From: a virus
Length of the DNA stretch: 32,313 bases
Virus record (IMG/VR): IMGVR_UViG_3300006924_000087
Location: 1 to 32,313 of that record
Reading direction: 5' to 3' (one strand)
In this document: positions 23,336-28,457 of the stretch, in pieces
Numbering within the stretch: the first letter of the stretch is position 1
Layout of the letters: every line of letters starts with the position of its first letter
Notes under the pieces: generated by a model
Database searches by the model: none
Seen by the model: only the letters and a program-made list of their open reading frames with translations
Told to the model about the DNA's origin: nothing
Made by a program: the position numbers and the translations under genes

Positions 23336-23533
23336 TTACTCCGCAGGATCAAGAAAGCCGTAGCGTTGCATTCCTTGCCCAAAATCTGTTTGCATAAAAA
23401 AAGTAATTATTTCCTGTCTTGTGCTTAGGTCATCTCGCAATTCTATGATCGCAGAGTTAGCCTCAACAGGTGAATCATAACTGCCAGTGACAGTATCTTC
23501 GTTAGAGCTTGTAGTATAACCGATCTCAATCAC
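23336..23533 (-). CDS. Unknown 65-aa protein after the tail tip gene
   Basis: I take GTG 23533 because it makes a GTGA overlap with the tip protein's stop and has GGAG 8 bp upstream; another GTG at 23569 lies further inside the tip gene. Begins MIEIGYTTSSNEDTVTGSYD. Contains RDDLSTRQEIITFFMQTDFG, unrecognised. Probably a small tip-associated protein by position. Confidence 0.65.
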   Translation of the reverse strand: MIEIGYTTSSNEDTVTGSYDSPVEANSAIIELRDDLSTRQEIITFFMQTDFGQGMQRYGFLDPAE

Positions 23534-26406
23534 GACACTAACTCCATTGTTCCAATAAACTTTTCGCACTCTACAGGTACATCTGTATAAAAAGATACAA
23601 CCTTCATGCTTGCTCTGAAGTCCGTTGCAGTAGTTGTAGCACCATAAGTATCAGATACGCTATGCCTGTTGTAATAAAATCCTCCGCCTGCCGGTGCGTC
23701 TACGCTAATTACATCAGATGATGCGGGATTAACCCATGTGCCTACTGCCGCGAACTTGTAAGGGTTAAAGTACATAGTTTCACCAGTGCTGAAAACTGTT
23801 GTTGCTTGCCCGACTAAAACGTAAGTTCGGTCATTAGTGCCGTCATAATAAACGCCTTCAATAGTGCCATAACCAGTGCCGCTGCTGTTGTCTGCCACAC
23901 CGCCAGTATTATCTAGCTCTGCAAGATAGTTGCCAGAGATATAAACAAGCTGCTTGAACGTATGCGGGAAACTAACAGCAACCACACCGTTAGTAGCACC
24001 AACCTGTACGCCCGTTGCGCTTTTGCTTTTAACCTGTAAGTTAAAGTTAATAGTTACCTTGCGATCAGTTGCGCCGGTATTTCGTAGCTTAAACATAAAT
24101 TCTAAATCTAGCCTTGCTCGCTTACTAATACTTAACTCGGGCGCTGGCAAAGTAAATGCTGTGGTTTCTTGAAATGATGATGTTAGCTGTAAGTCATCAA
24201 ACATAGAGACTGGGAACAACTCTGAAACATCACCTGATAACTTATTGGCAGTAATACTGTCAGCTTTTATCTGATCACCAGTAATTGTGCCGTCAACTAC
24301 TAGATCGCCGCTAATAAAGTTAGTGTTCTCGCTCCAACTGGATGTTCCTGTGCTGTATGTCCAAGCGTGAACGGTATCCTCAGTTGTGGTTGTGTCAGTC
24401 GCTAAAAACACATCGCCATTCTTAGGGTTGCGGCCTGCAACATCGCTAAACTGTTGCGCAGTTGGTGCTGTGGCTGAATCAGTTACCGCTTGATAAAAGC
24501 TAGGCAGGTTAGGTGTGCTGTCAGCAGTTGCAGTTGCAGAGCCAGTAAGTGCGGTTGATTTAACGCCTAAACCATTTACTGCAAAGATGCTTATATCGTA
24601 AGCCTTGCTGGGAATCACTGGTGCTATGGAATAGTCAGCAAGTTTGGTAATTTGATTATAAGGCTGTGCATTATCAGTAGTGTTTCGCCACTGCACAATA
24701 TAGTGATCAACAAAAGCATCTACTGCAGCTGTCCATGTAACCTCAAATGCTGGTGTAACCGTTCCGTCATCATTTACAGTAGTTACCGGCGTTACAGTTA
24801 AATTTGTAGGCGCTACTGTGGTTGTGCCGTCATACAGAGGCACCTCACCACCTTCAAGATAATCTTCCTCATCAGATGATTGCCAATCAAAAATAGCAGA
24901 TGCAGTTTCAATAGCCTGCACATTTACAATTATTTCTCCAGAAGCGTTAAAAGCCAGCTCATAATCTAGAACCTGAAACACCTTTTGCGACCATCCCATC
25001 TTGGTATTTGTAACCATGATGTTATCGCCTGCCTTAAACTTCAAAGCTGCCAAGTTGCAGGGAATAGTAATTGCTGTCTGCATACGCGACTTCAGCAAAG
25101 CAAGTTTTGCAATACGCTGTGCGCGGATATTGTTAGTAGTAAATGGCAGCGGAACGTCTAGGTACTCGATGCCGTCATCTTCTGCACCATACGCTGAAGC
25201 GCTACCTGTTCCTGATCCAGCACCAGTGGCAGTAAATATAACGCCTACAGTGTTGCTAGATGCGCCAATGGCAGTGAAGTCAGTAGTGCCTATGACTGTA
25301 ATCTTGTATTTTGTACCAGTAACAAAGCTGCCAGCAGATGTTCTAGCTAATTGGGCAGGGTAATCGGCAGTACTATAGTTATCATCTTCATTTACAAATA
25401 GCCCTTTCACGCCATTATAAATAGACCTTCTGGATTGCTTTGTTTGTACTGCTATATCACCTACAAGATTAGATTCGTCAATAGTAACTGTTGGCGCAAC
25501 ATATTCTGAACCAGAAATAAAAAATTCGCCGCCAGAGTAGCTCATAGTTCCAGCCATCGAGCTGAGCATAGCCTCAATGTTTTCTTTGCGTGAACTTGCA
25601 GTATCCAGCCTGCCATTTAGCGTATATCTTTTCTGTGTGCCACCAGCAGACAGCGCCACATCTTCGTCACAAAGCGCAATAGCCGTAGCCAAAGCGGTCT
25701 GGTTTATATTTGTTGCATCTTCACCCATTCCGTATTTAGTGTCGCGCATATAATCATAGACACAAAGGGCAGGGTTTTGACTCCATGCCGTAGTAGTTGT
25801 GACTGGGTTATAGACTTTTTTCCCGCGCACAATAGCAGAGATATTTGGCAGGCCGTTTGCAAACAAATCACTGTCCCATTCTAATCGCACATAAATGTAA
25901 GCTATGCCGAGCAGTCTGTGAGCAGATGTCCATTCACTAGTGTTGATTACAAGATCAGAATCAGCGGTCGTCTGATCGCCTAAATGTACGTTGATTTCGA
26001 CATTATTAGCAAACTTAGTTTGTACTGTGCCATTTGACCATGCAATTTCTTCGTTGAAATATATCTTCTCAAACGCATCAATCTCATGGTCTGCAACTGC
26101 AATAACAAGATTTAGATATTTGTTGTCTGCATGGGTTGATTCCATGAAAACAACTGCGCCGCCAACTCTTGCTCTGCCGTAGACTAATTTACGCGAAGCA
26201 TCAGGCTCTCTGACCGTAAATTCTGTTCCTGTTATTTGTTGTGGCAAATCGGGCTTTGGCATTAGTGCGCGAGATACTAAAGACAGACCAGCGCCAATCG
26301 CAAAAGCTGTCGCAAAAGCCGCTAAATTAAATGCAGTGCCAGCTATTGCCGCTGAAATTGCCGCGCCACCCGCTGCTGTTAATCCTGCAATTGCTGTTAC
26401 TGCCAT
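23530..26406 (-). CDS. J-like central tail tip protein (958 aa)
   Basis: Host-recognition tip of lambda J type. A hydrophobic Ala/Gly-rich N-terminus (residues 1-47) is followed by LVYGRARVGGAVVFMEST and the J-like body to about 345. An inserted module at about 357-405 (YKITVIGTTDFTAIGASSNT, FTATGAGSGTGSA) precedes the body's end (DNIMVTNTKMGWSQKVFQVL). A fibronectin III-like domain is at about 531-628 and a DGTITGDQIKADSITANKLS linker at about 706-724. The C-terminal beta domain (733-958) has DRTYVL...STGETMYFNPYKF, shared with the main fibre. Confidence 0.88.
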   Translation of the reverse strand: MAVTAIAGLTAAGGAAISAAIAGTAFNLAAFATAFAIGAGLSLVSRALMPKPDLPQQITGTEFTVREPDASRKLVYGRARVGGAVVFMESTHADNKYLNLVIAVADHEIDAFEKIYFNEEIAWSNGTVQTKFANNVEINVHLGDQTTADSDLVINTSEWTSAHRLLGIAYIYVRLEWDSDLFANGLPNISAIVRGKKVYNPVTTTTAWSQNPALCVYDYMRDTKYGMGEDATNINQTALATAIALCDEDVALSAGGTQKRYTLNGRLDTASSRKENIEAMLSSMAGTMSYSGGEFFISGSEYVAPTVTIDESNLVGDIAVQTKQSRRSIYNGVKGLFVNEDDNYSTADYPAQLARTSAGSFVTGTKYKITVIGTTDFTAIGASSNTVGVIFTATGAGSGTGSASAYGAEDDGIEYLDVPLPFTTNNIRAQRIAKLALLKSRMQTAITIPCNLAALKFKAGDNIMVTNTKMGWSQKVFQVLDYELAFNASGEIIVNVQAIETASAIFDWQSSDEEDYLEGGEVPLYDGTTTVAPTNLTVTPVTTVNDDGTVTPAFEVTWTAAVDAFVDHYIVQWRNTTDNAQPYNQITKLADYSIAPVIPSKAYDISIFAVNGLGVKSTALTGSATATADSTPNLPSFYQAVTDSATAPTAQQFSDVAGRNPKNGDVFLATDTTTTEDTVHAWTYSTGTSSWSENTNFISGDLVVDGTITGDQIKADSITANKLSGDVSELFPVSMFDDLQLTSSFQETTAFTLPAPELSISKRARLDLEFMFKLRNTGATDRKVTINFNLQVKSKSATGVQVGATNGVVAVSFPHTFKQLVYISGNYLAELDNTGGVADNSSGTGYGTIEGVYYDGTNDRTYVLVGQATTVFSTGETMYFNPYKFAAVGTWVNPASSDVISVDAPAGGGFYYNRHSVSDTYGATTTATDFRASMKVVSFYTDVPVECEKFIGTMELVS

Positions 26407-26410
26407 TTCT

Positions 26411-26860
26411 TTACCTTAATAATTTAGAATATATACGCTCGATCAAATCAAATTCCATGCTTTCCATAAGGCTGTCGAAGGGAATATGAACCTTGGTATT
26501 AATTGTTAAAAGTGCAACGCCTGCATTTTTGCAATGTTCCTCAGCGGCTTTAATTAACTTGTAACCCACTGCTGTATTCCTATACTCAGGCAAAACAAAC
26601 ACAACATCATTAACCGCAAAAACGTGATCTTTGTAGTGTATGCTGCGATTCGCAATAATCACACAATAACCTACTAACCTGCCGTCTATTCGCGCTGTAA
26701 ACGCAATTAACGAGCCTTCAGCGTCAAGTCTGGCGTACTCTTTCCAATCTGGGTTCAACTTGATAGCGCCTTGATGTAGCGCAACCTCTTCCCAGTGCTT
26801 TTCTAACAGAGGCTTAATATCTTCTTTAAAACTTGGCAGGCATTCATGCTGAATGATCAT
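26411..26860 (-). CDS. GNAT-like acetyltransferase-fold protein in tail block (149 aa)
   Basis: GNAT fold by layout: FTARIDGRLVGYCVIIA (beta 2-3), then the motif A region VNDVVFVLPEYRNTAVGYKL (84-102) with helix AAEEHCKNAG, and final strands. The acetyl-CoA loop R-N-T-A-V-G-Y is a variant of the usual QxxGxG/A, so activity is uncertain. The ATG overlaps the Hint-bearing gene's stop (ATGA). It stands where GTA-like tail blocks usually carry an NlpC/P60 peptidase, so it may modify a tail or host protein. Confidence 0.75.
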   Translation of the reverse strand: MIIQHECLPSFKEDIKPLLEKHWEEVALHQGAIKLNPDWKEYARLDAEGSLIAFTARIDGRLVGYCVIIANRSIHYKDHVFAVNDVVFVLPEYRNTAVGYKLIKAAEEHCKNAGVALLTINTKVHIPFDSLMESMEFDLIERIYSKLLR

Positions 26861-27900
26861 TTGTTATGAACAACGTAGTTATTGGCAATAAATGTGTCAT
26901 CGCCATCAACGTCAAGGTTGTAAACTGCCTCAAGGTTTTTGCGAACATTAACTTGTTTTACTGTCTCCATGCTGTAACCGGCTAATGGGCAGTATTTAAC
27001 TAATTTGTCCCCTATTTCTAGTTTGCCTACGATGTCTATATCATCATGCAGCTTTAAAGTTTGTTCTGGGTTAAATGATTTCCAGCCGCGTTCAGTCAAT
27101 AGAGGGTGCGTATCTGTAATCTCTAATGAGCCGTTTATGCTGTAAAGCTCTCTATCATCAACAGGGAAAGTGTAGACTTTGACGACATTATTAATCTGCC
27201 CTTTTGATCCTACAACCTTATCACCGACGATGATATTTTGTATCTCACTATACTTATTACCTTCAATAAGAATCAGAGTACCTAAAGTGAAGCAGCCGCC
27301 GAGTCCCCTACCACTATCACTGCCACCTGATGTTCTAGGATTGGGTCTACCCCAGATGATATCTTTGCGCTTTATTTTTGAAACAAACTCCAGACCTTTG
27401 TCTGTTGGATAGTCTATTTTTTGATCTTCTGCGGTATAGCGTCTAACTGATGCGCGATCAAATGCAATCAATTTGTTTTCGCAGGCTATCTTAATAACAG
27501 AAGTTTGAGCTGAGTCAGTAATTGTCATTACATCCATAAACCCGCTAAACACCACAATCGGGCTACTGATAATATCTCCAGAATCATCAAATGCGCCAAA
27601 TAGCATTGTTATCTTTCGGCCTTGGTAATTCTCATCTCTAGCTTTTGCAACCAATGAAGCCTTTACGCCAGATACAGTTATATTGCATCCATTTGCGGTT
27701 AGCTCGTCAGATTCTTTAATAGGGCTAATGTCTAGAAGATCGCCGCCGCCTACATAGGTATCGCCGTTATATACTAGATTGCCCAATCCAGACCATAAAT
27801 TAAGATCACCGCTGTCAAACTCCATCTTGACCAAATAGATAGGGCGTACAAGATCAGCAGTTGCGACTGCCTGCATTTCTGTAGATAGGGTTCTGCTCAT
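26857..27900 (-). CDS. Tail protein with C-terminal Hint (intein-like) domain (347 aa)
   Basis: Residues 1-202 form a DUF2163-like minor tail protein (YLVKMEFDSGDLNLWSGLGN at 22-41). Residues 203-346 are a complete Hint domain: block A starts at C203 (GGCFTLGTLILIEG), block B is EITDTHPLLTERGW with T262 and H265, the C-terminal blocks are AVYNLDVDGDDTFIAN and VVHN. The protein stops one residue later (HNK). A +1 Lys cannot support splicing, so the domain may cleave at C203 and release the tail protein, or only drop the last residue. It sits between the distal tail and tip genes. Confidence 0.88.
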   Translation of the reverse strand: MSRTLSTEMQAVATADLVRPIYLVKMEFDSGDLNLWSGLGNLVYNGDTYVGGGDLLDISPIKESDELTANGCNITVSGVKASLVAKARDENYQGRKITMLFGAFDDSGDIISSPIVVFSGFMDVMTITDSAQTSVIKIACENKLIAFDRASVRRYTAEDQKIDYPTDKGLEFVSKIKRKDIIWGRPNPRTSGGSDSGRGLGGCFTLGTLILIEGNKYSEIQNIIVGDKVVGSKGQINNVVKVYTFPVDDRELYSINGSLEITDTHPLLTERGWKSFNPEQTLKLHDDIDIVGKLEIGDKLVKYCPLAGYSMETVKQVNVRKNLEAVYNLDVDGDDTFIANNYVVHNK

Positions 27901-28457
27901 AACGCCTCAACAAATGCAAAAGTGAAGCCATATATTGACGCGGTATCTACCGACCAGCCTATATCGTTGCTCGATAAGCGCCATAAGCTCTTCGGTAATG
28001 TAAAGTCCAAAGCAGTTCCAGTAACAATCTCTGCTCTTAAAGGTGGCTGAAACTCTAACGTTCCTGCGCCTGCGCTCTTTGCGGCGGTGGTCATATAGAG
28101 ATAATCGCCAAGCTGAAAATATTCACCAGCAGCAACAGCACTGGAACCTGCTGTGGTAGTCAGTGACTCTGACCTGATCGCAGTTGTACCTGAAGTAGTG
28201 CCTGTAGCTGTGCTAGTGTGCAATGGGCTGCCGAAGGTAAAAGTTCCTGATCGGCCTTTTAAGCCGACAATGAATGCCTGCACTTGTTTTGCTTCGTCAT
28301 GGCTTAGGGGCGGCAGAGTAACTTCACACTCCCATCTAGCGCCTTGATGTTCGTATGCTTGCTGATCATAACTGAACGGCGAATCAGTGACAGCAACAGT
28401 TCGCATCAATCGCATATTAAGATTTTGTATTCCTACACTTGGGAAAGATAAAGGCAC
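27897..28457 (-). CDS. Distal tail-like protein (186 aa)
   Basis: Begins MPLSFPSVGIQNLNMRLMRT. The N-terminal half has YEHQGARWECEVTLPPLSHD, and the C-terminal beta part ends WSVDTASIYGFTFAFVEAL; a Ser/Thr/Gly-rich insert lies at about 104-125. Size and position, directly after the tape measure and before the DUF2163-like gene, fit a distal tail (Dit/gp12-type) protein that caps the tube. ATGA overlap with the next gene. Confidence 0.7.
   Translation of the reverse strand: MPLSFPSVGIQNLNMRLMRTVAVTDSPFSYDQQAYEHQGARWECEVTLPPLSHDEAKQVQAFIVGLKGRSGTFTFGSPLHTSTATGTTSGTTAIRSESLTTTAGSSAVAAGEYFQLGDYLYMTTAAKSAGAGTLEFQPPLRAEIVTGTALDFTLPKSLWRLSSNDIGWSVDTASIYGFTFAFVEAL

Follow-up and report, generated by a model that had tools for sequence, protein, structure and literature searches.

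Why does a marine phage tail protein carry an intein-like self-processing domain at its extreme C-terminus, with a single lysine after it? The window analyzed here is a whole virus contig of 32,313 bases in IMG/VR, and its open reading frame 26857-27900, on the minus strand like the other window features given with coordinates as parts of this gene and of the gene that follows it, encodes 347 amino acids. In the reading that we consider probable, the domain is a BIL-like, self-processing Hint that forms an exchangeable module at the C-terminus of a gpL-type tail-tip protein and releases a tail protein of about 202 residues.

The N-terminal part of the protein is the gpL-like tail-tip domain (residues 1-186; 27343-27900), supported by its profile match, by Foldseek and by the Hint-less homologues. 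The match is to phrog_2048, annotated as "tail protein" (E-value 1.2e-49), in agreement with the initial annotation, which had placed the Hint on a tail protein. In a Foldseek search of the PDB, this domain resembled siphophage tail-tip chains of T5, Chi, JBD30 and T1, as expected of a gpL-like domain. The neighbouring genes make up a tail operon of siphovirus type, running from the tape measure through the distal tail protein (27897-28457), the gpL-like gene and GNAT to the J-like protein (23530-26406), and the gpL-like assignment fits both homology and the operon slot after the distal tail protein (phrog_2048 and phrog_1302 neighbours, with the tape measure upstream and the J-like protein downstream). 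The translation places a low-complexity linker rich in Gly and Ser and ending in Gly-Gly at residues 187-202 (27295-27342), with low pLDDT over residues 166-198. The linker directly precedes the predicted scissile bond, and the Hint-less homologues end in a similar kind of tail. At the other end of the gene, the stop codon (26857-26859) overlaps the start of the next gene in an ATGA (26857-26860). This next gene encodes a GNAT-family acetyltransferase (26411-26860; Pfam Acetyltransf_1, 2.4e-10), which lies between the gpL-like and J-like genes in all examined relatives with contigs reaching that far. A cell-wall peptidase occupies the same position in other siphophages. A link between the Hint and the GNAT gene was rejected, as the GNAT gene adjoins Hint-bearing (nine loci) and Hint-less (seven loci) homologues alike.

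The Hint domain spans residues 203-346 (26863-27294). Its best Pfam match is the Vint/Hint-domain (1.4e-7, above the gathering cut-off), with weaker matches to Hom_end_hint and Intein_splicing. The catalytic residues that the initial annotation had listed are all in place. C203 (27292-27294, beginning at 27294), the predicted thioester-forming residue, stands between GRGLGG and Phe; the block B motif T262-x-x-H265 reads T262-D-T-H265 (27106-27117); and H345-N346-K347 (26860-26868), in the context V344-H345-N346-K347-stop, are the last three residues. AlphaFold2, run on an alignment of 46 rows, predicted the Hint part (residues 201-347) with a pLDDT of about 96, the N-domain with moderate confidence and the linker as disordered. 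Foldseek matched the prediction to BIL and intein structures with a probability of 1.00, supporting the horseshoe Hint fold. The earlier proposal of an intact Hint centre is supported. The top PDB match was BIL2 of the Tetrahymena BUBL1 locus (6y75/6tmm; TM about 0.77 on target length), followed by DnaB-type inteins and the Clostridium thermocellum BIL (matches including 1mi8 and 2lwy). A profile built from 15 related Hints ranked the C. thermocellum BIL (2lwy) best at 3.5e-11, with BIL2 (6y75) among the next at 6e-8. The fold search and the profile search both pick BIL domains, and the resemblance is thus found by two methods. C203, T262-x-x-H265 and H345-N346 show no variation within the gpL set, and all complete Hint-bearing gpL relatives, from three divergent lineages that are 62-71% identical, end in VVHNK-stop. 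In every complete relative examined, the first residue of the Hint is Cys, and this Cys is invariant in 32 divergent HNK-ending proteins. Block F is Asp in the gpL set, whereas DnaB-type inteins have His at the same place.

Comparison with known systems places the domain within the Hint superfamily. It is not a homing intein by content, with no Pfam endonuclease match in the open reading frame and a length of only about 144 residues. Splicing inteins (DnaB, RecA and gp41-1) share the fold and the catalytic motifs but have their own Cys, Ser or Thr at +1 and a C-extein, whereas here the +1 residue is Lys and a single residue follows Asn346. The initial annotation had also noted the single Lys and had excluded a splicing intein; K347 is indeed followed by the stop, and the Cys/Ser/Thr nucleophile is lacking. 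The exclusion is too firm, because one Lys already amounts to a minimal C-extein, splicing in the absence of a +1 nucleophile has sometimes been reported for A-type BIL domains (PMC5874633), and the Lys could act as the nucleophile itself. Hedgehog Hog-Hint and Vint are likewise C-terminal Hints that release an N-terminal partner, but the phage Hint differs from Hog-Hint in that it has no sterol-recognition region and retains Asn-Lys, with one residue and then the stop. Like the A-type BIL domain of C. thermocellum (2lwy), the phage domain has the Hint fold, an N-terminal Cys and a C-terminal His-Asn without a +1 nucleophile, the last being the defining A-type feature (PMC7765530, PMC5874633). 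Its location is different. BIL domains have been described as insertions within the variable regions of bacterial proteins that are not conserved (PMC5874633), whereas this domain forms the very end of a conserved phage tail protein, with Lys as the sole following residue. From these features, we judge the terminal Lys+1 BIL-like Hint to be a Hint superfamily member that would work most like an A-type BIL domain, and we judge it to differ from described BILs in its single Lys and in its placement at the very C-terminus of virion proteins. Hints on phage proteins also occur in uncultured Caudovirales (for example A0A6J5KSY2 and A0A516L6G1, known only as predicted records), and A0A516L6G1 aligns with the tail protein over its whole length at 29% identity.

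The tail domain mostly occurs without the Hint. Relatives of the tail protein are encoded on 141 viral stretches in IMG/VR, of which 80 loci were kept, and about 70 of these are Hint-less and end near residue 205. One Hint-less homologue (L011) has 204 residues, is 82% identical over residues 1-202 and ends in GGGQ. The predicted cut at Gly202-Cys203 would yield the length of these homologues, which makes plausible the earlier suggestion that a 202-residue tail protein is released, since the Hint-less forms, of about 205 residues, stop at the same place. The last residue of the Hint-less homologues (L011-L080) is Arg in 25 of 44; a basic end is common with or without a Hint.

Recent exchange is evident from a Hint-bearing and a Hint-less locus (L006 and L012), which share 97.7% DNA identity across 3.7 kb as far as codon ~184. 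Beyond this codon, L006 has the Hint and L012 a short tail, and both then resume with the same GNAT gene. On the tree of the N-domain, the Hint label requires five gains or losses, at least three of them forced by supported branches, and a single origin was found in no bootstrap tree. Within Hint-bearing pairs, the Hint evolves with a dN/dS of 0.05-0.12, similarly low to the tail domain. The swaps, the changes on the tree and the low dN/dS together argue, at the sequence level, that the Hint has moved as one unit and is under purifying selection while present. The exchange of forms with and without the Hint indicates that the module is dispensable in this phage group. Patchy distribution and recent swaps would also suit a selfish terminal intein, i.e., a self-removing mobile module that recombines among phage structural genes with no benefit to the phage, as would the identity of the window Hint to Hints on unrelated proteins (47-48%), similar to its identity to the gpL Hints of L006, L007 and L009 (47-50%). 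However, the domain, of only about 144 residues, has no homing endonuclease region, it evolves under purifying selection about equal to that of the tail domain, and selfishness alone does not explain the Lys. We regard this explanation as unlikely.

The lysine is the surprising feature of the domain. Hint patterns that leave the residue after Asn free also retrieved HNK-stop from unrelated proteins, namely DUF4815-like proteins of ~1330 residues, J-like proteins of ~1000 residues and fibre-like proteins of ~580 residues. The statement in the initial annotation that HNK ends recur in phage proteins was correct, and the recurrence is stronger than stated there. The pattern G-phi-phi-V-H-N-K-TAA/TAG, which itself fixes the Lys, was present in 111 stretches, 101 of which end open frames of at least 60 residues that join into one BLAST group with 38 clusters (many of the counted HNK loci are related, and the counts are not independent, yet they span many clusters). 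Wherever the start of the Hint is visible in this group of 101 proteins, it opens with Cys.

Because this pattern fixes the Lys, controls with a free residue were run. The control N-G-phi-phi-V-H-N-any-TAA/TAG had 59 matches in IMG/VR, comprising 47 Hint ends with Lys, one real Hint with Cys, and 11 short or unrelated frames; Lys is thus found in 47 of the 48 IMG/VR Hints with one residue between Asn and the stop. Real Hint ends matching NN[FY]VVHN-x-stop also all carry Lys, save one with Thr. The control N-G-phi-phi-V-H-N-stop returned four matches, none of them a Hint, and thus no Hint ending directly at Asn. For A-N-G-phi-phi-V-H-N, which requires no stop, a 120-row sample of viral contigs included 107 in-frame matches, with +1 residues of Cys (76), Ser (23), Thr (3) and Lys (3). 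Cys, Ser or Thr therefore occupies +1 in 102/107, and only two of these matches end within three residues, each with a single Lys.

Several simpler causes of the rule were considered. The Lys codons at the HNK end are AAG in 60 cases and AAA in 51, and the use of both led us to reject a DNA-level cause of the last codon and indicates that selection acts on the amino acid. Compensation for a missing block F His is unsupported, as HNK-ending Hints carry either His or Asp there. Nor does a preference for Lys in the final codon account for everything, as 15 loci have HN-K followed by further residues. Codon use, the controls and these extended loci together place the rule at the amino-acid level and tie it to the residue after Asn. 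Among 26 proteins with several Hints, the last HN is followed by Lys and the internal HN mostly by Arg, Ala, Cys or Phe, and so a +1 Lys does not appear to be required by every related domain.

Block B is less strictly kept. In the scanned stretch of the HNK-ending proteins, TxxH is found in 71/101, and TxxQ without TxxH in 18/101. L153, L215, L243 and their relatives form a subgroup of HNK-ending Hints that open with CVEENT and have TxxQ replacing TxxH; Cys, His-Asn and Lys are thus better kept than the block B His. The TxxQ cases and the block F Asp suggest that catalytic details differ or that some of these Hints are weak. The absence of the block B His from some HNK-ending Hints is also what could be seen if the domain were inactive and remained attached to the tail in a structural or adhesive role. 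We consider such a domain very unlikely in view of the invariance of C203, T262-x-x-H265 and H345-N346 in the gpL set and of the Cys that opens every complete Hint examined.

Self-processing of the tail protein is likely. Computation here gave the fold with its motifs, their conservation, the modular exchange, the purifying selection and the restriction to Lys, and every chemical step is one that we infer. Hint chemistry proceeds through an N-S acyl shift, a thioester and Asn cyclisation (PMC5874633, PMC7765530, PMC8616854). After folding, the Gly202-Cys203 bond would be converted to a thioester by an N-S acyl shift, helped by T262 and H265. Asn346, activated by His345, would cyclise and cut the Asn346-Lys347 bond. 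The thioester would then be resolved by an amine or by water, the Hint departing and the tail protein returning to the ~202-residue length of its Hint-less homologues. Water as the resolver would give plain release and a free amine would give joining, with Lys347 in the +1 slot or a Lys of a neighbouring virion subunit as candidate amine donors. Hydrolytic N-terminal cleavage alone at Gly202-Cys203, with HN-K as a leftover or structural cap, would also give a product as long as the Hint-less homologues, and BIL domains are known to cleave at their N-terminal side (PMC7765530). However, a leftover would drift, whereas HN with one Lys is kept over 38 clusters, Lys holds the place in 47/48 and none ends at Asn, and we hold this account to be rather unlikely. 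Asn cyclisation, by analogy with intein chemistry, needs a leaving residue, and the lack of HN-stop ends thus suggests that the bond after Asn is cut in use.

For resolving the thioester, we slightly favour a lysine amine over simple hydrolysis. Only Lys, among the amino acids, offers a side-chain amine that is nucleophilic. It stands here in the slot of the intein second nucleophile, and BIL2 is reported to form a lysine isopeptide; taken together, these analogies make Lys plausible as the acceptor nucleophile. In one version, the side-chain amine of the +1 Lys would attack the Hint thioester to form an isopeptide rather than an ester, and Asn cyclisation would free the Hint, amounting to lysine-nucleophile splicing; we regard this specific route as doubtful. 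In another, also improbable, version, the Gly202 thioester would be passed in trans to a Lys of another tail subunit or of a host surface molecule, as by BIL2. BIL2, from the BUBL1 polyubiquitin locus of T. thermophila (6y75/6tmm), is the top structural neighbour and likewise has GG before its Cys, and it has been reported to form an isopeptide bond, K(eNH2)-C-ter, with other proteins (PMC8616854). It passes ubiquitin-like domains to substrates, and the flanks before the Cys in the window (R-G-L-G-G) and in L004 (R-G-G) resemble its reported RGG flank. However, this flank varies across the wider HNK class, a conserved acceptor was not identified, and the GNAT gene next to it accompanies Hint-bearing as well as Hint-less forms. 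Unlike the phage Hint, which has only one Lys after it, BIL2 sits between ubiquitin-like domains, and its reported nucleophilic Lys lies in the neighbouring ubl5.

The recurrence of HNK-stop on unrelated structural proteins points to an undescribed processing or lysine-joining reaction in virus particles. A single-Lys C-extein is a striking rule in a family with chemistry thought to be understood, and it poses the question of the role of Lys at intein +1. If the Lys resolves the thioester, the making of isopeptides without ATP, to date reported for a BIL domain of a ciliate, would extend to phage virions and could yield a compact tagging or ligation tool. Phage structural proteins would then be capped with, or joined via, an isopeptide-bound Lys, a chemistry previously undescribed. 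If it does not, many phage structural proteins may still be self-processing precursors, and gene length would not equal the length of the virion protein.

A tblastn search of 50,697 isolate phage records with five Hint queries returned no close relative, only inteins and one Erwinia phage protein, which could explain why the class was overlooked. In the searchable literature, which subscription journals mostly lie beyond, we found no description of the Lys-stop rule. As a possible bacterial source, a genome scan gave two ordinary intein-like matches, HNS and HNC, and this source was rejected. Among cultured phages, the closest case is gp117 of Erwinia phage pEa_SNUABM_7 (L391:2020-3456), a jumbo phage virion structural protein with collagen-like repeats and a C-terminal Hint ending in HN-TDMTAQAEKT, i.e., HN-T and nine further residues. 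Relatives of gp117 are present in nine Erwinia phage records.

The gpL-like protein of the window is one identifiable N-terminal partner of HNK-ending Hints. Others are a phrog_32 tail assembly protein (L165), a J-like tail protein (L094), phrog_358/DUF4815 proteins (L115 and L167), a baseplate-wedge-like protein (L217) and fibronectin-type proteins. Judged by sequence similarity, the nameable partners are nearly always virion tail, baseplate or fibre proteins, several of the 38 clusters having no nameable N-terminal part. Some HNK-ending proteins (L222:6934-9285, L256:6722-9049, L204:706-2967 and their relatives) apparently carry two or three Hints in tandem, often with the Asn of one Hint just a few residues ahead of the Cys of the following one, and with HNK-stop at the end of the final Hint. 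In a further group (L096-L098, L100-L104, L106-L108, L111 and L112), the Hint is followed by HN-K-(G) and a second Hint-like stretch that starts with CF and has no HN end; some members of this group are glycine-rich and adhesin-like.
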